Below are positions 2,192-29,502 of a DNA stretch of 64,000 nt, piece after piece. The notes below the pieces were generated by a model that saw only the letters and a list, made by a program, of their open reading frames with translations, searched no databases and was not told the DNA's origin. The stretch lies in contig NZ_JOMG01000002.1 in NCBI RefSeq assembly GCF_000711225.1, positions 508,501-572,500 of the forward strand, in the 5' to 3' direction. Source of the stretch: Pelobacter seleniigenes DSM 18267. GTDB lineage: Bacteria > Desulfobacterota > Desulfuromonadia > Desulfuromonadales > Geopsychrobacteraceae. Every line of letters starts with the position of its first letter. The stretch's first letter is position 1. Made by a program: the position numbers and the translations under genes.

Positions 2192-2304
2192 ACAAATACC
2201 TTCTCCAGGTTGAATAAGAAGGAAGTTTTTTCTATTGTCAGTTTTTTGAACAAGGCCCCGCAACAGCAGACTGACCAATCTCCTTCATGGACACCGGAGC
2301 GATG

Positions 2305-3054
2305 ATGAACCAACAAACCTGGAACGCCCGCCAATATCAGGATAAAGCCTCTTTCGTTGCCGACCTCGGCACCCCGGTGCTGGAATTACTGAACCCGCAG
2401 CCCCATGAAGCGATTTTGGACCTGGGCTGCGGCGATGGCGCGCTGACCGAAAAAATTGCCCAGATCGCCAGCCGGGTGGTCGGCATCGACTCCAGCCCGA
2501 GCATGGTTCGGGCCGCCCTGGAAAAAGGACTGCATGCGGAGCTGATGAGCGGTGCGGATATCACTTACCGGAATGCCTTTGACGCCGCGTTCAGCAACGC
2601 CGCCCTGCACTGGATCAATGATGCCGCGGCGGTTATCAAGGGAGTTTTCAATGCACTGAAGCCACAGGGAAGATTTGTCGGAGAATTCGGTGGCCACGAC
2701 AATATCGCCACCCTGGTTCAGGCCATGGGCACGGTGGTCGCACAGCATCCGGAGATGGGGCCTTTTACCAACCCCTGGTTCTTCCCCCGGGCGGAAGAAT
2801 ATCAACAACTCCTGGAAAGAAACGGTTTCAGAGTCGATTACTGCGAGTTGATTCCCCGCCCGACCCCGTTACGGTCCGGGGTCCGGGAGTGGCTGAAAAT
2901 TTTTGCCAACCATGTGATTGCAGATTTACCGGAGGGAGGCGAAGAGCTGTTTCTTTAACAAACCGAGCAGTTGGTCAAACCGGTACTGTACTCGGAACGG
3001 GACGGCTGGCATGCCGACTATGTCCGGTTGCGCTTTGCGGCACACAAACGCTGA
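2305..3054 (+). pseudogene. Class I SAM-dependent methyltransferase interrupted by an in-frame TAA
   Basis: Seven-strand SAM-methyltransferase fold: the SAM-binding loop DLGCGDG lies about 40 residues in, followed by GIDSSPSM and SNAALHW, as in trans-aconitate-methyltransferase-like proteins. ATG 2305 is preferred because GGAG lies five bases upstream; ATGs at 2287 and 2302 are alternatives. Translation stops at TAA 2956-2958, yet the same frame continues to TGA 3052-3054 and encodes 31 residues typical of this family's C-terminus (PVLY, GWHADYVRLRFAAHK). A GAA-to-TAA change would explain the stop. It may be a recent loss of function, a tolerated truncation, read-through or a sequencing error. 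The substrate is unknown. The divergent ArsR fusion probably regulates it. Confidence 0.75.
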
Positions 3055-3240: not shown

Positions 3241-3882
3241 TCAGAAATAGATGGAGTCGATAAACTCTTTGCCGTTGTCGATATGCTCAAGCAGGGCCTC
3301 GCGGACCCGAACGATATCTTCACTGCGGAAAGCCTCGACAATGGCATCGTGCTCATTCAAAAACTCTTCATAGCGAGCACCGTAGTGACGGCTGATATGG
3401 CGGCGCATAAAAAACCGCTGAAAGGTGTCATGGAAGGTGTCCAGGATATACCGGTTTTCACTGAGTTCAAGAATCAATGAATGAAAATTCAGTTCAAGAG
3501 TGAAGCGCAAGCGATGATCATCCGACGCGGCAGTCTCCCTGATGACCTGGGCCCGGCGCTCCATCTCCCGCAGGCTTTCCGGGGTAATGTTGATAATGGC
3601 CTTTTCTGCTGCACCGAGTTCCAGAAAACGGCGAAAATCATGCAACTGATCATGCTCCTCCTTGGTGAGTTGATGGACCATGTAATAACTTTTTCGAGCC
3701 GAATAATCGAGGTACCCCTCTTTGTAAAGCATGATCACTGCAATCTTGACCGGAGTACGGCTAACCCCGAGTTGTTCGGCTAACTCGCTGATCACCAACC
3801 GTTGTCCGGGGATCAGTTCGAAGTTGAGCATCATGTTCCTGATTTTGAGATAGGTTTGAACTTCGAGCGAGTCTTCCTGCAT
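3241..3882 (-). CDS. GntR-family (FCD type) transcriptional regulator
   Basis: 213 residues: an N-terminal GntR winged helix (about 10-75, with ISELAEQLGVSRTPV) and an all-helical FCD ligand-binding domain (about 85-205) carrying conserved Arg, Glu and His positions (FHSLILELSENR, EHDAIVEAF). FCD regulators usually sense small carboxylates or sugar acids, often with a bound metal. The start is ATG with AAGGAGAGG upstream. It is divergent from the FucI-like/ACP/SufS/SufE cluster, and a 42-bp palindrome lies between them, so it most likely represses that cluster and perhaps itself. The ligand cannot be told from sequence. Confidence 0.85.
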   Translation of the reverse strand: MQEDSLEVQTYLKIRNMMLNFELIPGQRLVISELAEQLGVSRTPVKIAVIMLYKEGYLDYSARKSYYMVHQLTKEEHDQLHDFRRFLELGAAEKAIINITPESLREMERRAQVIRETAASDDHRLRFTLELNFHSLILELSENRYILDTFHDTFQRFFMRRHISRHYGARYEEFLNEHDAIVEAFRSEDIVRVREALLEHIDNGKEFIDSIYF

Positions 3883-4104
3883 TCACCTCTCCTTGTCTGC
3901 CGCCTCCTGTTTTTCTTCAGGCCTGAGGAATAAAAGAAAAAACGGCTGCCTGCGGTTTATATAATAATTTTCAGTAAGCCGCAAGGACAGGCCATCTTGG
4001 CGCAGATTTTCCCATCCGCCTGCCCATTTTCTGTCTCGTAAACACATTGTTTCCGTTCTGGCCTATCCCATATAGCTCGAAAATTTCTTGACTTCGAATA
4101 TTTT

Positions 4105-4146
4105 GAATGCAACACTGAATTCATTACTGAATTCAGTGTTGCATTC
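4105..4146. promoter_or_regulatory. 42-bp palindrome in the GntR/FucI-like divergent region
   Basis: Two perfect 18-base arms (GAATGCAACACTGAATTC and its complement) flank a six-base centre, ATTACT. The core also reads as a direct repeat, ACTGAATTCA-TT-ACTGAATTCA. It begins 12 bases after a -35-like TTGACT (4088-4093) and ends 70 bases before the ATG at 4217. It is far longer than a usual single GntR site, so two dimers may bind; as RNA it would form a very stable hairpin in the leader. The rest of the 334-base gap shows no gene. Confidence 0.7.
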
Positions 4147-4216
4147 GATAACATACCAGGCCAAGGACGACAAAACCAGCTGGATAACCAGCTATCACAC
4201 AAAAAGGAGTGTTGTT

Positions 4217-5764
4217 ATGTCGATCGAACGGACGTTAGATGTAAAGTTGAATGTCAAACCGGTCTTTGTAGCCATGCACCATGACTACGTTTTCGAAGGG
4301 CCCTGCCGCTTCGGTAGCGGAGTCGGGCTGACCAAGGATTTTGATCTCAAGATCAATCAGGAAATTTATGCCGCTTTTCTTGGCGATGTGGAAACCTATG
4401 TTGCCAAAGAAGTCAACCTGCTGGAACCGGTCTTCATTGACCGCAACGAGGAATTCGCTGTCACCGATGCAATGCTGGCGAAAATGGCCGGCCATGTGGA
4501 AGAGGTCGATGTCTATCTGTTCGGTCAGGCCGGACGCGGCTTCGATGTGATCATTGAGTTTGCCCAACGCTACAAAAAACCGGTGATGTTTGCGGAAAAC
4601 GCCCTGCATATCACCTGCACCGCCGCACCGATCCTTGCTCGCGGCCTGGAAGCCTACCCCACCATGTGTTGGGAAGACACGGTAGAAAAACTGAAACTCC
4701 TGCGCGTCCGCAAAGCGCTGCAACAGACCAAAGTCCTGCTTGCCCCGCGCGGAAATTCCAATATATCTTTGAGCGCCCTTGATTCGTTCCTGTCCCTGGA
4801 AAAAGTGAGCGATGTTCTTGGCGTCAAATTCCGCTATGTCGATGTCCATGAACTCCTCGACCAGACCCGGCACGTTGCTGCGGACAGCAACCATACCACC
4901 CCCGGGGTAAGCGGTCTCAACCCCACCGACGCCGAAATGAAAGAGATCTACGCGCTGACCGACAAAATGATTGCCGGTGCGGTCGAATGCGATATGACCC
5001 GCGAAAACGTGCTGCGCTCGGTCATGGCCTATGCGACAGTCAAAAAGTTCCTGGCCCACAATGAGTGCAACGCCTTTTCCATGCCCTGCCCGGACGCCTG
5101 TGCGACGCGACGCCTGAACCAGGAAAAGATCACCCCCTGCTTTATCCATTCCATGCTCAATGAAGAAGGGATTCCATCGGCCTGCGAGTATGACATCCCT
5201 GCCCTGATTTCCATGGTGGTGCTGATGAACCTGGCCAACGCTGCCCCTTACATGGGCAATACTTTCCCGACCCTGCTGAAAAACGGCAAACGGGTTAATG
5301 TACGGCCAACTTTCTTCAGAGCGGACCAGTCGCAGGAACAGGATATCCCGGAACTGGGTGAGCAGGAGAATGTCATGCTGACCTTCCACTCGGTCCCCAA
5401 CCGCAAGATGAAGGGTTTTGACAGTGCCGAATCCTCCTATGCCCTGCGCGCCTTTGCCCGCGATGCTGAGTTTGGAGCCACCATCCGTTACGACTTCAAA
5501 AAGGATATCGGCCAGACCATCACCATGTGCCGCTTCGACCCGACCTGCAGCAAGCTGTTCGCAGCCAAAGGGACCATCGTCGGCGGCGTGGGCTACACCG
5601 ATAAGAACTGCAGCGAAGGGGTCTTCTTCACCGTGAAAAGCGACAAAGACTTCTTTAACAAGCAGGTCGCTTTCGGCAACCATGTGCCACTGGTCTATGG
5701 CGATCATCTTGACGATCTGATCGCCCTCGGCGAACTGCTGGGGATGGAGATTGTAACCGCCTGA
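4217..5764 (+). CDS. L-fucose/L-arabinose isomerase-like protein of unknown function
   Basis: 515 residues. The C-terminal half resembles the FucI/AraA isomerase C-terminal domain (GIPSACEYDIPALISM, followed by the LANAAPYMGN region). The middle is rich in cysteines (NECNAFSMPCPDACATRR, then CFIHSMLNEEG), which is unusual for sugar isomerases and could hold a metal, an iron-sulfur cluster or a persulfide. The start is ATG 4217 with AAGGAG ten bases upstream; the in-frame upstream extension would be encoded by the palindrome and looks non-coding. It is the first gene of a unit with an ACP-like gene and sufS-sufE. Isomerase chemistry is an inference from fold; the substrate is unknown. Confidence 0.6.
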   Translation: MSIERTLDVKLNVKPVFVAMHHDYVFEGPCRFGSGVGLTKDFDLKINQEIYAAFLGDVETYVAKEVNLLEPVFIDRNEEFAVTDAMLAKMAGHVEEVDVYLFGQAGRGFDVIIEFAQRYKKPVMFAENALHITCTAAPILARGLEAYPTMCWEDTVEKLKLLRVRKALQQTKVLLAPRGNSNISLSALDSFLSLEKVSDVLGVKFRYVDVHELLDQTRHVAADSNHTTPGVSGLNPTDAEMKEIYALTDKMIAGAVECDMTRENVLRSVMAYATVKKFLAHNECNAFSMPCPDACATRRLNQEKITPCFIHSMLNEEGIPSACEYDIPALISMVVLMNLANAAPYMGNTFPTLLKNGKRVNVRPTFFRADQSQEQDIPELGEQENVMLTFHSVPNRKMKGFDSAESSYALRAFARDAEFGATIRYDFKKDIGQTITMCRFDPTCSKLFAAKGTIVGGVGYTDKNCSEGVFFTVKSDKDFFNKQVAFGNHVPLVYGDHLDDLIALGELLGMEIVTA

Positions 5765-5823
5765 GCCAGTGGGCTCGATGGGTGACGGTTTGGTGAAGCA
5801 AAAATCCCAACAGGAGCGAAATC

Positions 5824-6231
5824 ATGTCGGCAACAGCGCTTAAGGAAAAACTCTTATGCTCCAAGAACCAGGCGGCCGAGCAAATCGCTGCGATTAAAGC
5901 CCTGCCGGAACTGAACCAGGAGGCGTTGTTTTTTCATCTGCGGAACTACCTCAAAAGCAGGTTTCTTCTTGAGGAAGAAGACTGCCGGAGCGAGAACCTG
6001 CAGGAACTGGCGGCGATCAGCCTGGCCAAGACTCTGGCGGTCTCGCCGGCCGAATTAAAAGGGCTCGATCTGTCGCAGACCTGTACCGGCAGCTCTTCGG
6101 TGTTCAGCAAGAAAGTGTTGCTGCTCATGGCCCTGGAACGGGAATTGAACATTTCCATCCCGGAACAGGAAAGCGTGCGCATTAAAACCATCACCGACCT
6201 GACCACAGCGGTCCTGACCAAACTGCGTTAA
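5824..6231 (+). CDS. Small acyl-carrier-protein-like protein
   Basis: 135 residues. The last 80 resemble an acyl carrier protein: a helix II-like stretch VLLLMALERELNISIP followed by a KTITDLTTAVL helix, matching the usual VMALEEEF-IEIP and TVGDAV pattern. The Asp-Ser-Leu site that carries phosphopantetheine is not intact; the region reads CTGSSSVFSKK, so several serines could serve or none may. The N-terminal 50 residues are helical and not recognised. RBS CAGGAG precedes the ATG. It lies 59 bases after the FucI-like gene and before sufS, which suggests a docking or carrier role with the desulfurase, as ACP plays for mitochondrial NFS1. That role is inference. Confidence 0.55.
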   Translation: MSATALKEKLLCSKNQAAEQIAAIKALPELNQEALFFHLRNYLKSRFLLEEEDCRSENLQELAAISLAKTLAVSPAELKGLDLSQTCTGSSSVFSKKVLLLMALERELNISIPEQESVRIKTITDLTTAVLTKLR

Positions 6232-6239
6232 GCGTCACC

Positions 6240-6274
6240 AGGATCCGCAGCCTACTAAAAAGGCTGCGGATCCT
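6240..6274 (+). terminator. Strong hairpin between the ACP-like gene and sufS
   Basis: Perfect 13-base arms (AGGATCCGCAGCC and its complement) around a nine-base loop, nine bases after the ACP-like stop codon. No T-run follows, so it may be a partial terminator, a processing site or a 3'-end stabiliser separating expression of the first two genes from sufS-sufE. Confidence 0.55.
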
Positions 6275-6303
6275 GTCGCTCAGGCCCTCTTGCGGAGCAC
6301 CTT

Positions 6304-7542
6304 ATGTCAATGGATGTGGAACAGATACGCAGGGATTTTCCGATCCTGCAGGAAACAGTATACGGCCGACCGCTGATCTATCTGGACAACGCCGCCACCA
6401 CCCAGTTGCCCATTGCGGTCCTCGATGCCCTGCAAAACCATTATTGCTATTGCAATGCCAACCCCCATCGGGGGATCTACGCCCTCGGCGCCAAGGCCAC
6501 TGCCGACCGGGAGTCGGCCCGCGCAGAGATCGGAGCCTTTATCAACGCGCGCAATCCATGCGAAATTGTCCTTTGCTCGGGCACAACCGACGCCATCAAC
6601 CTTGTTGCCGCGTCCTTTGGCGATGCGTTCCTGAAGCCGGGCGATGAGATCATTGTCTCCGCCATGGAGCATCACTCCAACTGGGTTCCCTGGCAGATGT
6701 TGTGTCGCAGACAAGGTGCCAGGCTCAAAGTCATTCCGCTGGATGACCAGGGTGATCTGTGCCTGGACCGCTTTACCGAACTGCTCTGCGACAAAACCCG
6801 TCTGGTCGCCGTGACCCAGGTATCCAATGTCCTCGGCACCGTCAACCCTCTTGAAACCATCATCAAGCTGGCTCATCAGCGGGACATCCCGGTGCTGGTC
6901 GACGGCGCGCAAAGCATTCGCCATGAAATCATCGATGTCCAGCAGCTGGATTGCGACTTTTTCTGTTTTTCCGGCCATAAAGTTCTGGCACCGGCCGGAA
7001 TTGGGGTGTTGTATGCCAAGGAAGATGTGCTGCGGCAATTGCAGCCGACCCGCTTCGGCGGCGGTATGATGGCCAAAGTCGACCGGCAGCAGGCGGTTGC
7101 CGAAGACCTGCCCCATACCTTTGAGGCCGGAACGCCCAACTGTGCCGGAGCCGTGGCCCTGGCCGCCGCCCTGCGGTATCTGAACAGCCTGGGCCGGGAC
7201 GCAGTTCAGCGTGCCGAACAGGATTTGACCGATTACTGCTGCGCCCGGCTCAGCACCATGGCGGACCTGCACATCCTTGGCCAGCCGCAGCACCGGGCCG
7301 GGGTGATCAGTTTCAATGTCAACAGCCTCCACCCTTACGACATTGCCACGCTGCTGGATAAGCTCGGCATCGCCGTACGCTCCGGCCAGCACTGCGCCCA
7401 ACCGTTGTTCGGAGAACTCGGCTTAAGCGGTGCGGTTCGGGTTTCACCGGCCTTTTACAACACCAGAGCAGAGATCGATAATCTGGTTGACTCACTATCA
7501 CGAGTGATCGCATTACTGCGCCACCAGGAATCCAAACCATGA
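6304..7542 (+). CDS. sufS: Group II cysteine desulfurase (SufS type)
   Basis: 412 residues, class V aminotransferase fold. It removes sulfur from L-cysteine with pyridoxal phosphate and leaves a persulfide on its own cysteine. Visible: the N-terminal YLDNAATT motif, the PLP-binding Lys in SGHKVLAPAGIG and the catalytic Cys in RSGQHCAQP, which is the short-loop SufS signature. GGAG lies seven bases before the ATG. It overlaps sufE by four bases (ATGA), so the two are translationally coupled. No SufBCD scaffold genes are nearby, so the sulfur may go to a dedicated use linked to the FucI-like and ACP-like genes rather than general Fe-S assembly; that point is inference. Confidence 0.9.
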   Translation: MSMDVEQIRRDFPILQETVYGRPLIYLDNAATTQLPIAVLDALQNHYCYCNANPHRGIYALGAKATADRESARAEIGAFINARNPCEIVLCSGTTDAINLVAASFGDAFLKPGDEIIVSAMEHHSNWVPWQMLCRRQGARLKVIPLDDQGDLCLDRFTELLCDKTRLVAVTQVSNVLGTVNPLETIIKLAHQRDIPVLVDGAQSIRHEIIDVQQLDCDFFCFSGHKVLAPAGIGVLYAKEDVLRQLQPTRFGGGMMAKVDRQQAVAEDLPHTFEAGTPNCAGAVALAAALRYLNSLGRDAVQRAEQDLTDYCCARLSTMADLHILGQPQHRAGVISFNVNSLHPYDIATLLDKLGIAVRSGQHCAQPLFGELGLSGAVRVSPAFYNTRAEIDNLVDSLSRVIALLRHQESKP

Positions 7543-7958
7543 CCATTAACGACCTGCAGAACAAGATTATTGCCGATTTTGAGGAGTTGGAAGACAGTTT
7601 CACCAAGTTCGCCTACCTGACCGAGTTGGCAACCACCCTGCCCAGGCTGACCGAGAAACAGAAATCGACTGCCAACCTGGTCGCCGGCTGCCAGTCCCAA
7701 GCCTGGCTGGAGATGCATTGCCGCGATGGCAAAATCGAGCTGCAAGGGGACAGTGACACCTTAATCGTCCGCGGCATTCTGGCCATCATTGCCACGGTCT
7801 ATTCCGGCCGCCGCCCGGAGGAAATCGTTACCGCCGACTTCTACCTGTTACAAAAGGCAGGGATCACGGATGTGTTGTCCACGGACCGGGCCAACGGTAT
7901 TGCCGCCATCCTGGCAAAAATCCGTTCTTATGCAGCGGCCTGTCTCGGTTCTGTTTAA
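7539..7958 (+). CDS. sufE: SufE-like sulfur acceptor
   Basis: 139 residues. It accepts the persulfide from SufS and raises its activity. The family pattern is clear: LTEKQKSTANLVAGCQSQAWL, where the Cys after AG is the sulfur-accepting residue, followed by GKIELQGDSDTLIVRGILAI. It starts inside the last codons of sufS. It is the last gene of the unit; a hairpin at 8021-8040 follows. Confidence 0.9.
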   Translation: MTINDLQNKIIADFEELEDSFTKFAYLTELATTLPRLTEKQKSTANLVAGCQSQAWLEMHCRDGKIELQGDSDTLIVRGILAIIATVYSGRRPEEIVTADFYLLQKAGITDVLSTDRANGIAAILAKIRSYAAACLGSV

Positions 7959-8020
7959 GTGATTCGGGGTTGCTCTCGGGCGACCCGTCATATTTCATAC
8001 CCAGGGCGGCCCAGCCATCA

Positions 8021-8040
8021 AGCCGGTCTCCCGACCGGCT
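8021..8040 (+). terminator. Hairpin downstream of sufE
   Basis: AGCCGGTC, loop TCCC, GACCGGCT: a perfect 8-bp GC-rich stem 62 bases after the sufE stop. Only short T tracts follow, so a Rho-independent terminator is probable but not textbook. Confidence 0.5.
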
Positions 8041-8193
8041 GAAACGCTTTTCCGGTTGCTTGCCACTGACCGTTTGGCACGGCTTTATTTTCTTCCTCAA
8101 GGGATTGAATTCCTGCGGCCTATCGTTTAAAACCTTACCATTCTGACATCAGTAGTTTCTCAATCCGAAATTTAAACCTGATAAATACCGGTC

Positions 8194-8214
8194 GTCCCGC
8201 CCGTGCTGCGGGAC
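8194..8214 (+). promoter_or_regulatory. Hairpin in the purT leader
   Basis: GTCCCGC, seven-base loop, GCGGGAC, ending 22 bases before the purT ATG and just before its AGGA ribosome site. It could influence translation. I could not match the leader to a known purine-linked riboswitch. Confidence 0.35.
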
Positions 8215-8236
8215 ATCATCAGACAGGAATCATGTT

Positions 8237-9433
8237 ATGACCACAATAGGAACCCCTTTCTCGTCCACAGCCACCCGCGTGCTGCTCTGCGGTGCGGGCG
8301 AACTCGGCAAGGAAGTTGCCATTGAACTGCAACGCCTCGGCTGCGAGGTGATCGCCGTCGATCGTTATGAACATGCTCCGGCCATGCAGGTTGCGGACCG
8401 TTCCCATGTCATCTCGATGCTGGATGGAGCGGCCTTGCGAGCGGTTATCGAGCAGGAACAGCCACACTATATCGTCCCGGAAATTGAAGCCATTGCCACC
8501 GACACCCTGGCCGAACTGGAGCAGGAAGGATTTAACGTGGTCCCCACCGCCCGGGCTACTCAGTTGACCATGAACCGCGAGGGAATCCGCCGTCTGGCGG
8601 CAGAAACCCTGGGCCTGCCGACCTCCAACTATCGCTTTGCCGCAAGTCGGGACGAATATCGCGCAGCAGTCGCTGCAATCGGCCTGCCCTGCCTGGTCAA
8701 ACCGATCATGAGCTCTTCGGGTAAAGGGCAAAGTCTGGTCAAAACCAGGGAAGCGATTGAAGCGGCCTGGGATTATGCCCAGGAAGGCGGCCGCGCCGGA
8801 AAAGGCAAGGTTATCGTGGAAGGATTTGTCGATTTCGATTTTGAAATCACCCTGCTGACCATCCGCCACAATGATGCCACCGGGCAAATCACCACCAGTT
8901 TTTGTGCTCCCATCGGTCACCGTCAGGAAGACGGTGATTACCAGGAATCCTGGCAGCCGCAAGCCATGAGCCCCCTGGCCCTGGAGCGTGCCCAGGGCAT
9001 TGCCAAAGCGGTCACGGACGAACTGGGCGGACGCGGGCTGTTTGGAGTGGAACTGTTTATCAAAGGAGATGCGGTCATCTTCAGTGAAGTCTCCCCCCGA
9101 CCGCACGATACCGGGTTAGTCACCCTGATCTCCCAGGATCTGTCCGAATTCGCGTTGCATGTTCGCGCCATCCTCGGCCTGCCGATCCCTAATATCGTGC
9201 AGAACGGACCATCAGCTTCAGCGGTATTGCTGGCTTCAGGACATTCCACCCGAATGCAATACGGCAACCTGCAAGCCGCATTAAACCGACCAGACACCCA
9301 ACTGCGCCTGTTCGGCAAGCCTGAAATCGCCGGGAAGCGCCGCCTTGGAGTCGCGCTGGCACGAGCGGAGAACGTCGCCAAAGCACGCCAGACCGCTAAT
9401 GCCGTCATTACAGATATTCAGGTGACACTCTAG
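8237..9433 (+). CDS. purT: Formate-dependent phosphoribosylglycinamide formyltransferase
   Basis: 398 residues, the usual PurT length. It makes formyl-GAR from GAR, formate and ATP in purine synthesis without folate. ATP-grasp architecture: an N-terminal Rossmann-like domain ([20 protein letters not shown]), the central ATP-grasp with [12 protein letters not shown], the metal and formate region ([12 protein letters not shown]) and a C-terminal lid. Formate use fits an anaerobic lifestyle. It appears to be a single-gene unit with the start at ATG 8237 and AGGA upstream. An insertion sequence begins only a few bases after its stop codon and may have displaced its terminator. Confidence 0.93.
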
Positions 9434-9540: not shown

Positions 9541-10650
9541 ATGACAAAGTCTATCACTTATGTTGGTTTCGATGTTCATAAAAACTCGATCGATGTCGCG
9601 TTAGCCGATGCTGGCCGCGAGAGTGAGATCCGCTATTACGGCACCATTAACGGAGATCTTGCCTCACTGGACAAGGTGATCCGTAAACTGGTCTCACGGG
9701 GAACCAGACCCTCCTTTGTTTACGAGGCCGGACCCTGTGGCTATGAAATCTATCGGCATCTGACACAGCAAGGATACGATTGCAAGGTGGTTGCCCCATC
9801 GCTGATTCCGCGAAAAAGCGGCGACCGCATCAAGAATGATCGCCGCGACGCTGAGATGCTGGCGCGGCTGCATCGTGCTGGAGAACTGACTCCGGTCTAT
9901 GTCCCTTGTCTCGAAGATGAGGCGATGCGCGACTTGTGCAGAGCCCGCATCGACAGCAAAAGTGCTGAACGCAAAGCGCGCCAACAACTGGGGGCCTTTC
10001 TCCTGCGCAGCGGGTTCCGCTACAGCGGGAAAACACCCTGGAGCAAGGCTCACTGGAACTGGATCTCTTGCATCAAGATGCCGCATCCGGCCCAGCAGAT
10101 CACCTTGCAGGAATATATTGATGCCATACGTTCCTGCACAGAACGAGTTGAACGCATGACTGAACAGATTCGCCAACTTGCCGAGCCGTGGCGCATGAAT
10201 CCTGTCGTCGAGGCGATTCAGGCCCTGCGAGGCGTCTCCCTGATTGTTGCGACAACAACGGTTGCCGAATTGGGAGACCTGACCCGCTTTGATCATCCTC
10301 GACAGCTCATGGCGTACCTGGGATTGGTTCCCTCGGAACACTCCAGCGGCGAGACGGTCAAGCGTGGCGGGATCACCAAAACCGGGAACGGACATGCCCG
10401 GCGCATGCTGGTCGAAGCGGCTTGGTCGTATCGACTTCCGGCTCGGGTCAGTCGTCGGCTGCTTGAACGGCAGAGGCACCTACCGCAGGCTGTTTGGGAG
10501 ATCGCCTGGAAAGCACAATTGAGGCTCTGCTCCCGCTATCGACTGCTGACCGCCAAGGGGAAACGCAGTCAGGTGGTCATTGCGGCCATCGCCCGTGAGT
10601 TATCAGCATTTATCTGGGCCATCGCCCAAACGGTGCCACGCCCGGCATAG
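9541..10650 (+). CDS. IS110-family DEDD transposase
   Basis: 369 residues. The N-terminal RuvC-like DEDD domain shows Asp11 (VGFDVHK), Glu62 (YEAGPCG), Asp100 and Asp103 (KNDRRDAEMLARL). The C-terminal Tnp_20 domain shows the serine-containing SSGETVKRGGITKTGNGHARR block. All catalytic positions are present and the frame is intact, so it may be active. Enzymes of this family cut and recombine DNA under the guidance of an RNA encoded in the element's non-coding end. GGAGACAGG lies just before the ATG. Confidence 0.93.
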   Translation: MTKSITYVGFDVHKNSIDVALADAGRESEIRYYGTINGDLASLDKVIRKLVSRGTRPSFVYEAGPCGYEIYRHLTQQGYDCKVVAPSLIPRKSGDRIKNDRRDAEMLARLHRAGELTPVYVPCLEDEAMRDLCRARIDSKSAERKARQQLGAFLLRSGFRYSGKTPWSKAHWNWISCIKMPHPAQQITLQEYIDAIRSCTERVERMTEQIRQLAEPWRMNPVVEAIQALRGVSLIVATTTVAELGDLTRFDHPRQLMAYLGLVPSEHSSGETVKRGGITKTGNGHARRMLVEAAWSYRLPARVSRRLLERQRHLPQAVWEIAWKAQLRLCSRYRLLTAKGKRSQVVIAAIARELSAFIWAIAQTVPRPA

Positions 10651-28065: not shown

Positions 28066-29502
28066 TTACTCTTGTACTGCCAGGTCCGGGTTGAAACCGG
28101 AAGCGGATCTCTGGCCTCCCCCAAGGGCCAGATACAGGGTCATCCGATCTTCCAACTGTTCCATACGGTTTTTATTCAGCGCCAGATGGGCACTGCGCAA
28201 CGCCTCCTGCTTGTCGAGCCATTGTTCCAGGTCGGTCGCGCCGGCACGGTAACGGCGGCGGCTCAATTGTTCCGCCTTAACAGCCAGGGCCAGGTTCTGC
28301 TCCAGCAGCCCGGCGTTTGCCAGATCCTGCTCACGGGCAACCAGAGCATCTTCGACTTCAGCCAGCGCGGCATACAGCGTCTGTCTGAAATCGATCACCG
28401 CACTTTCAAGATCAGCCTCGGCTGCTTGGACATTCAAAGTGGTCCGATTCCAGTTCACAAAGGGCAAAACCAACCCGGTTCCCAGACTCACCAACGGATT
28501 CTGCAGGACCTGGCGGAGTTCATCGCTGCTGCTGCCCAGAGATCCGGTCAAAGTCAGCTGCGGATAGTAATCGGCTTTGCTGGCCTCGAACTGCTGATGC
28601 AGCTTACGCAAACGCAATTCAGCAGCCCGCAAATCGGGGCGATTCCCCAGCAGCTCTGCCGGCAACCCGGCCGCCACCCAGGGAATCGCAGTTTCGGCCA
28701 GATCGGTAATCTCTGTGAAACCCGCCGCGGGCGGCCGATCAAACAGGATCGCCAGAGCATGCCAGGTCTCCTTGAGATCCTGCCGGGTCTCGTGCAAAGT
28801 TTGCTCTGCCTCGTGCAGCGCCTGCCTGCTGCTGAACCATGCCGCGGCAGTGGTCGCCCCAGCCTGATAACGGGCCTTGGTCAATTGCTCAATCTGCCCT
28901 GTACAAGCGAGGGACTGCCGGTTTAAAGTCACGCTCTCCTGCAAATAAGAGATCTTCCAGTACAACTTGGCAGTGGTCCCGATCAATGAAAGCACAGCGC
29001 TATGGCGATCCTCCTCCGTTGCCTGAGCCTCCAACCGGGCGGCAGCATGAGCCGCCGAATACCTGTCCCAGAAGTCGATCTCGTAACTCAGTCCGGCGCT
29101 GACACTGTAGCTACTGCTCCGGGCACCATCTTGCAAGTCACGAGAGCGGCTCAAATCGGCGGAACCCGTGGCCGTCGGCCAGAGTTCCGTGCCGGCAATG
29201 CCGGCCTGCAGTCGCGCTGCCTTGATCTTGACCGCGGCGGCCCGGACATCGTTATTGACCGCAATAACCTGCTCGATCAGCCGATTCAACCGCGGGTCAT
29301 GGAAGGTTTCCCAGAACTTCTCCCCGCCAAGGCGTTGCTGGTCGGCGCTGGTCGCCTCCTGCCATTGCTCCGGAACATTCAGGGATGGGGCATGGTAAGC
29401 GTTTTTACCCAGGACCGAGCAGCCCGGCAGCAAAGCCAGCAGCAAAGCCAGCAGTAAAGCCAGCAGAACATATCTGCACACCAACGGCCCGCCCATGATC
29501 AA
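28066..29502 (-). CDS. Outer-membrane efflux lipoprotein (NodT/TolC family)
   Basis: 478 residues. A signal peptide with lipobox (LLPGCS) is followed by two outer-membrane-efflux repeats with long helices. The signal-peptide core is encoded by a 12-bp tandem repeat giving LLAL units. It forms the outer-membrane channel for the MacAB pump encoded just upstream; its start overlaps the macB stop by four bases. Family members trimerise in the outer membrane. Confidence 0.9.
   Translation of the reverse strand: MIMGGPLVCRYVLLALLLALLLALLPGCSVLGKNAYHAPSLNVPEQWQEATSADQQRLGGEKFWETFHDPRLNRLIEQVIAVNNDVRAAAVKIKAARLQAGIAGTELWPTATGSADLSRSRDLQDGARSSSYSVSAGLSYEIDFWDRYSAAHAAARLEAQATEEDRHSAVLSLIGTTAKLYWKISYLQESVTLNRQSLACTGQIEQLTKARYQAGATTAAAWFSSRQALHEAEQTLHETRQDLKETWHALAILFDRPPAAGFTEITDLAETAIPWVAAGLPAELLGNRPDLRAAELRLRKLHQQFEASKADYYPQLTLTGSLGSSSDELRQVLQNPLVSLGTGLVLPFVNWNRTTLNVQAAEADLESAVIDFRQTLYAALAEVEDALVAREQDLANAGLLEQNLALAVKAEQLSRRRYRAGATDLEQWLDKQEALRSAHLALNKNRMEQLEDRMTLYLALGGGQRSASGFNPDLAVQE
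29429..29464. repeat. 12-bp tandem repeat within the signal-peptide coding region
   Basis: Three copies of AGCAAAGCCAGC (the third with one change) encode four-residue Leu/Ala units in the hydrophobic core of the outer-membrane lipoprotein signal peptide. Gain or loss of a unit would keep the frame and change core length by four residues. Confidence 0.7.

Follow-up and report, generated by a model that had tools for sequence, protein, structure and literature searches.

Where does sulfur go when a cysteine desulfurase and its sulfur acceptor are encoded together with a protein that resembles sugar isomerases and a small protein that resembles acyl carrier proteins (ACPs)? This question is raised by a four-gene cassette in Pelobacter seleniigenes DSM 18267, which we analyzed within a stretch of 64,000 nucleotides (contig NZ_JOMG01000002.1, positions 508,501 to 572,500 of the forward strand; hereafter the window, in whose numbering positions are given). 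The cassette encodes a protein resembling L-fucose isomerase (FucI-like), an ACP-like protein, a SufS-type desulfurase, and a SufE-type acceptor. An earlier, sequence-only reading of the window had suggested that these genes deliver persulfide to a specific product or cofactor, perhaps a thio-sugar or a sulfur-modified metabolite. The gene set is found in some bacteria, many of which are Clostridia, and appears to pass sulfur from cysteine to the FucI-fold enzyme. The elements of the locus are the following:

3241-3882, minus strand, divergent from the cassette: GntR-family regulator with an FCD ligand domain (Pfam FCD, E 1.2e-21; GntR, E 2e-10; both over cut-off)
4105-4146, between the regulator and the FucI-like gene: perfect inverted repeat with 19-nt arms and a 4-nt spacer
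4217-5764, plus strand: FucI-like protein, 515 aa, fold from predicted structure
5824-6231, plus strand: ACP-like protein, 135 aa, ACP-like fold from predicted structure
6304-7542, plus strand: SufS-type cysteine desulfurase, over the TIGR01979 cut-off
7539-7958, plus strand: SufE-type sulfur acceptor (Pfam SufE, E 6.7e-36)

These coordinates agree with the four genes, divergent GntR/FCD regulator, and 42-bp palindrome that the sequence-only reading had described. The start of sufE overlaps the end of sufS by 4 nt. The FucI-like open reading frame (ORF), as listed, starts at a TTG (position 4088); the ATG at 4217 is preceded by AAGGAG and matches the starts of relatives, and was therefore taken as the start. 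At curated cut-offs, the regulator, SufS, and SufE are named by Pfam or NCBIfam, and the FucI-like and ACP-like proteins reach none.

The association of the four genes exceeds chance, as many loci in other phyla show it too. Neighborhoods were typed with profiles built from cassette members, at thresholds of >20 bits for ACP-like and SufE proteins and >100 bits for SufS. There were 55 core FucI-like genes, of which 37 were assessed; the other 18 had a flank of <2 kb or were incomplete and were left out. Within 3 kb and on the same strand, an ACP-like protein is encoded at 33 of the 37 loci, SufS at 21, and SufE at 19; SufS or SufE is present at 25 and all three partners at 14. When 5 kb and either strand are considered, the counts are 34 (ACP-like), 23 (SufS), and 21 (SufE), and two loci have no partner.

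At several loci, partners are joined in a single gene: the ACP-like protein and SufS in seven cases, and SufS and SufE in one. In the stretches examined, a SufE gene lies near just one of the seven ACP-SufS fusions (at L068); the fusion at L012 runs off its contig, and SufE was not searched for elsewhere in those genomes. Ten genomes that bear FucI-like genes contain 13 ACP-like matches of >100 bits; for 12 of these, a FucI-like gene is no more than 2 kb away, and the remaining one, in G327, is on another contig (a fourteenth match of 19.8 bits, containing a stop, was left out of this count). The FucI-like family reaches up to five copies per genome; G534 and G674 each contain five FucI-like matches and four ACP-like genes, with SufS or SufE beside some copies only. 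One of the FucI-like copies at L066 has no ACP-like gene nearby but does have SufS and SufE. At L071, SufS is split into two ORFs (306-1531), and L124 contains an N-terminally cut ACP-like fragment (7970-8239); both are possibly decaying cassettes.

The sequence-only reading had considered the cysteine desulfurase relay to be complete, and the active-site residues bear this out. SufS of the window scores 524 bits to TIGR01979 (cut-off 475), short of the narrower E. coli-type model PRK09295 (473 vs. 661 bits), and has the pyridoxal phosphate Lys and the catalytic His and Cys (H123, K226, and C364). H123 and K226 are unchanged in all 31 relatives, and C364 in all 30 covering rows. SufE scores 123 bits to the Pfam SufE model (cut-off 27), short of the narrower NCBIfam SufE model (96 vs. 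160 bits); its catalytic C51 is present and is kept in 29 of 30 relatives. The CsdA and CsdE equivalog models are not reached by the cassette genes (377 vs. 494 bits and 81 vs. 136 bits, respectively).

The cassette SufS is the sole desulfurase of the host genome (5.09 Mb in 6 contigs) to exceed the SufS family cut-off. A search for SufB/SufD (PF01458) yielded no match in the host genome and was positive in 14 of 14 control genomes. Three NifU_N/IscU genes are located elsewhere in the host genome, and one of them (C5:241248-241613) comes directly after a second desulfurase gene (C5:239991-241103). The absence of SufB/SufD from the genome, together with the location of IscU/NifU elsewhere, indicates that the cassette SufS-SufE pair, judged by gene content, is not part of a housekeeping SUF system. 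The earlier statement that no SufBCD or IscU scaffold is present holds for the neighborhood and, as far as SufB/SufD is concerned, for the whole genome; it fails genome-wide for IscU.

The ACP-like protein, which the sequence-only reading had called a small carrier-like protein, is predicted to adopt the helical ACP fold, with the caveat that Z-scores of the size obtained may reflect an arrangement common among helical proteins. Its AlphaFold2 model has a predicted local distance difference test (pLDDT) score of 85.6, with values <50 for residues 83-90 around Cys87. In the VIA structural list, 33 of 50 rows are named as ACPs in their titles (Z 7.6-9.1, over residues ~28-135); the other 17 rows are chains from complex I, mitoribosome, and FtsHi-motor entries, which presumably contain ACPs. 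Foldseek returned no match below E 0.001, although most of the entries that it lists are ACPs, and a weak, below-cut-off match to the NCBIfam ACP model (E 1.2e-4) agrees with the fold. Cys87 is present in 48 of 48 covering rows (the 49th row is a fragment) and Lys96 in 47 of 48, with position 92 occupied by Ser in 41 rows, Thr in four, and Leu in three. Ordinary ACPs carry phosphopantetheine on the Ser of a DSL motif. In E. coli ACP, this residue is Ser36, as described in PMC13343975. No invariant Ser occurs at the usual phosphopantetheine place in the 48 rows of the ACP-like family, and the pairing of position 92 with the ACP Ser is uncertain since loop length and helix start differ. We propose that the ACP-like protein is a persulfide carrier that acts via Cys87.

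The AlphaFold2 model of the FucI-like protein (built from an 11-row alignment; pLDDT 81.5) has as its best VIA matches the L-fucose isomerases 1fui and 4c20, both at Z 28.2, with 432 residues aligned in 1fui at 3.5 Å and 425 in 4c20. L-arabinose isomerases (AraA) match at Z 23.6-26.4, and unrelated structures follow at Z ≤8.5. Identity to these isomerases is 11-14% (~13% at Z 28). The protein is accordingly modeled as a full-length, three-domain FucI/AraA isomerase fold. Sequence comparisons yielded no Pfam match over cut-off, and the sole NCBIfam match, to the SqvD/SftI model NF048012, is a weak local one (34.6 bits over ~93 residues, cut-off 700) on which an assignment as sulfoquinovose isomerase was rejected. 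Among solved structures, a sequence search listed no isomerase, whether the query was the protein or its family profile, and hhalign of the family against single FucI and AraA sequences gave short, low-score pieces and no significant match.

Conservation was evaluated in 68 FucI-like rows of over 250 bits, fragments included (the weaker fragment L084 was left out). Seven Cys residues (C30, C284, C291, C295, C308, C323, and C465) are unchanged in all covering rows (65-66 of 68), as are H22, H311, H391, H489, D326, and N348; E324 is Glu in 64 of 66. The sugar-isomerase-like fold with a Cys cluster noted from sequence is thereby recovered both in the predicted structure (Z 28.2 to FucI) and in the seven invariant Cys. 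The metal triad of FucI we take to be E337, D361, and H528, letters that are confirmed in the FucI sequence. E324 and N348 of the FucI-like protein are 24 residues apart, as are E337 and D361 (paired by hand from spacing and flanking letters), and hhalign places H489 opposite H528 at low score. On these grounds, the isomerase ligand Asp361 is read as Asn348 here, and Asn is found in 66 of 66 covering rows. The Glu-Asp-His triad of FucI/AraA is consequently incomplete, with E324 and H489 kept and Asp replaced by Asn. In a low-score alignment, C291 stands opposite AraA Phe279, presumably an active-site residue.

Five remote FucI-like homologs (L005, L006, L007, L009, and L010) keep C291, C308, C323, C465, N348, H391, and H489 and lack C30, C284, C295, H22, and H311. 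Because only the former residues are kept, C30, C284, and C295, along with H22 and H311, are special to the desulfurase-linked family, and the other four Cys are older. No suf or ACP-like genes were identified near L009 and L010, the two remote homologs with long flanks. The SftI model matches weakly in both remote homologs tested, L009 and L010. A shorter, divergent FucI-like clade (L078-L081 and L116-L122) contains all seven Cys, and 10 of its 11 loci encode a desulfurase on the same strand within 500 nt. ACP-like, SufS, and SufE are all present at three of these loci (L078, L079, and L117), and seven others have the desulfurase only. The desulfurases of L080 and L081, the two tested by NCBIfam, are nearest to TIGR01977, just below its cut-off. 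GH31 genes are found in the vicinity of L080 and L081, and L079 has a gene for a sugar-type ABC permease nearby.

Neighboring genes were scanned as a selection of those present. Among them, LysR, PucR-type, and AraC regulators occur at the loci of relatives in place of GntR/FCD, placing the regulator outside of the conserved core. Transporters near cassettes vary as well and comprise major facilitator superfamily (MFS), citrate/sodium-sulfate-symporter, TRAP, and ABC types. Such variation in regulators and transporters suggests that the FucI-like proteins are substrate-specific enzymes. At L072, genes for thiolase, 3-hydroxyacyl-CoA dehydrogenase, and CoA-transferase are located 2-5 kb upstream, and FAD-oxidase and electron transfer flavoprotein (ETF) genes lie near the cassette at L073. 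At L015, M20 peptidase and DUF3100 genes (5975-8194) are located 1.8-4 kb upstream of the cassette, a possible clue to a substrate.

Collectively, we tentatively favor the reading that the cassette is a dedicated relay running from SufS through SufE and Cys87 of the ACP-like protein to the FucI-like protein, where it builds or repairs a metal-sulfur center; we give this reading a little less than an even chance. Given its family membership and intact active site, SufS would draw sulfur from cysteine, and the persulfide would then pass to SufE and/or to the ACP-fold protein at Cys87. Direct transfer from SufS to Cys87 fits the ACP-SufS fusions, seven in number, with a SufE gene nearby at L068 only. 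The ACP-fold protein, whose gene is paired with that of the FucI-fold protein, may dock on this partner and deliver sulfur there. The FucI-fold protein, with its Asp-to-Asn change at the metal site and added Cys, could use this sulfur to build or repair the center and would thereafter act on a small substrate, which would vary from paralog to paralog, with the adjoining regulator turning the cassette on when the substrate is present. We infer Fe-S or metal-sulfur binding by the FucI-like protein only from its invariant Cys. A metal-sulfur center is ranked first because the seven Cys are invariant and are kept even where no ACP-like gene is present, because several paralogs occur per genome with SufS/SufE beside only some of them, and because regulators and transporters vary. 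A fuller version, in which the family is a new class of metal-sulfur enzyme on a sugar-isomerase fold, with up to seven Cys and several His ligands at or near the former active site, a private desulfurase, an ACP-fold carrier with a persulfide Cys replacing phosphopantetheine, and paralogs for different substrates in some Clostridia, is possible and in our view rather doubtful.

Several observations weigh against the proposed relay. Neither SufS nor SufE is encoded within 5 kb on the same strand at 12 of the 37 core loci, the core loci include several close pairs in the tree and so are not fully independent, and the ACP-like, SufS, and SufE profiles used for typing were themselves derived from cassette members. 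Two loci (L008 in G252 and L013 in G299) keep all seven FucI-like Cys although none of the three partner genes lies nearby, and genome-wide searches of G252, G299, and G305 yielded no ACP-like match. The relay is therefore not indispensable, and a FucI-like protein may occur in the absence of the other cassette genes. As judged from the alignments, C291, C308, C323, and C465 are present also in remote homologs, and the two such homologs with long flanks lack nearby suf genes; these four Cys alone thus provide no evidence for a relay. One of the 30 SufE relatives lacks the catalytic Cys, and no binding of E. coli ACP to SufS was observed in PMC13343975.

A serious rival is metabolite thiolation, which we place behind the metal-sulfur center and judge to be unlikely. 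In this explanation, the compound bound by the FucI-fold protein, a sugar or another hydroxy-carbonyl, would receive persulfide sulfur from the relay and become a thio-sugar or thio-acid. The FucI fold, the completeness of the relay, the opposition of C291 to AraA Phe279, and the MFS transporter genes near some cassettes would all suit such chemistry; however, no modifying enzyme recurs beside the cassette among the neighbors scanned, the seven Cys persist in genomes with no ACP-like match, and they exceed the need of a simple acceptor. Of the dedicated persulfide delivery first proposed, then, what survives is that the genes belong together and that the relay is complete and apart from SUF; a thio-sugar or other metabolite is not singled out as its product, as the seven Cys fit a metal-sulfur center at least as well. 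A role for the ACP-like protein in carrying a phosphopantetheine-linked substrate for the FucI-fold protein, with SufS/SufE supplying the sulfur, would be consistent with the ACP fold, with the Ser that most rows (41 of 48) have at position 92, and with the CoA-related genes upstream at L072. We consider it improbable: position 92 is Thr in four and Leu in three rows, whereas Cys87 is present in all 48, scores to curated ACP models fall far short of the cut-off (21.8 vs. 71 bits), and CoA-related genes were found at L072 only. The proposal that an ordinary sugar isomerase lies by chance beside general Fe-S assembly genes is very improbable. It could draw on the similarity in fold and on the GH31 and sugar-type permease genes near L079, L080, and L081, all of which are divergent relatives, but it is contradicted by the conserved linkage and fusions, by Asn at the FucI ligand Asp in 66 of 66 rows, and by the absence of SufB/SufD from a genome in which a NifU_N/IscU gene follows another desulfurase elsewhere.

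The preferred reading, a relay serving a metal-sulfur center, concerns a cassette that also occurs in other phyla. A contig scan identified at least 11 relatives, which belong to families of Clostridia and to Erysipelotrichaceae, Chitinispirillaceae, and Fibrobacter. In whole-genome searches, the counts of which include the center genomes, a threshold of E 1e-20 gave FucI-like matches in 19 of the 299 genomes searched in the family of G298 (nine core-type and 10 of the shorter divergent clade). At E 1e-60, a threshold that can miss the divergent clade, matches were detected in 19 of 250 genomes of the family of G302 and in two of 196 genomes of the order of G301. The distribution is patchy, since the center genome alone matched among 398 genomes of the phylum of G298 at this threshold. 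In the host's own phylum, four of 297 genomes matched at E 0.001, with full-length matches in the host genome and G252 only, and none of 59 close relatives of the host had a FucI-like match at E 1e-20. Joint conservation of the genes was consequently borne out in other phyla and not among close relatives; of the 37 core loci, 14 have all three partners within 3 kb on one strand, and others have the ACP-like gene alone. In the FucI-like tree, the rows nearest to the window protein are from Clostridia and Fibrobacterota, with weak placement (support 80/30). The absence from 59 relatives, the nearby IS110-type transposase, and these nearest rows suggest that the cassette was gained by horizontal transfer. 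The IS110-family transposase (9541-10650; Pfam Transposase_20 and DEDD_Tnp_IS110) lies 1.6 kb downstream of sufE and is separated from the cassette by a PurT-like gene (8237-9433). A tblastn search of plasmids with the FucI-like protein as query returned no match.

The inverted repeat is, from its position, a possible operator. An arm with up to three mismatches is expected 0.01 times in the shuffled window, and no second copy of the repeat occurs in the 64 kb. Just upstream of the cassette, a gene for an S-adenosylmethionine-dependent methyltransferase (2287-3052) is broken by an in-frame stop codon and then remains open in that frame for at least 31 codons; this gene is apparently decaying. 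A single ORF at 1112-2110 joins an ArsR-type helix-turn-helix domain, DUF2087, and a weak, below-cut-off GIY-YIG match, an unusual combination. A predicted tRNA-Gly(ccc) at 28089-28178 is antisense to, and overlaps, a 478-aa ORF (28066-29502). An Rfam scan of the window yielded no match.

Dedicated sulfur relays from cysteine desulfurases are known, whereas an ACP-fold protein-thiol carrier and a FucI-fold destination are not described in the literature searched. No published description of the gene set was found in the titles and abstract starts of the open-licence PubMed Central (PMC) articles listed, with subscription papers and preprints outside of this scope, in agreement with the sequence-only reading, which knew of no such pathway. 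The paulomycin cluster includes a cysteine desulfurase and an ACP, as described in PMC4425429. A paulomycin-like isothiocyanate biosynthesis was rejected, as the partner there is ThiF-like and the account of the cluster in that source names no FucI-like or SufE gene (PMC4425429). If the proposed relay is correct, it would represent a new sulfur carrier and either a new route to a sulfur-dependent enzyme center or a new thiolated metabolite. It would also provide a function for an enzyme family with up to five copies per genome and a gene-fused counterpart for the ACP-desulfurase link that is under study in E. coli and mitochondria.

Like FucI and AraA, the FucI-like protein has the full-length fold (Z 23.6-28.2), with E324 and H489 at the places of FucI E337 and H528; unlike them, it has Asn348 for the ligand Asp361, seven Cys that are invariant in its family, and 11-14% identity. 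SqvD/SftI is likewise a member of the FucI family and provides the only NCBIfam match of the FucI-like protein. However, according to PMC9594981, a SqvD model retains the Mn2+ ligands, whereas the FucI-like protein has the Asp-to-Asn change, and no sulfoglycolysis set was noticed among the neighbors scanned, with GH31 near two divergent relatives. The SufS-SufE pair of SUF and the CsdA-CsdE pair belong to the same desulfurase and acceptor families and have the same catalytic residues, but here no SufB/SufD is present in the genome, the CsdA and CsdE models remain below cut-off, and the partners have FucI and ACP folds. Finally, E. coli ACP binds IscS, with a modeled phosphopantetheine thiol 2.6 Å from the desulfurase Cys, as described in PMC13343975. 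As in this complex and in mitochondrial NFS1-ISD11-ACP, an ACP-type protein would work with a cysteine desulfurase in the cassette; in contrast to both, the desulfurase is SufS-type, the ACP-like protein has an invariant Cys of its own and lacks an invariant Ser for phosphopantetheine, and at seven loci both partners are encoded as one fused protein.

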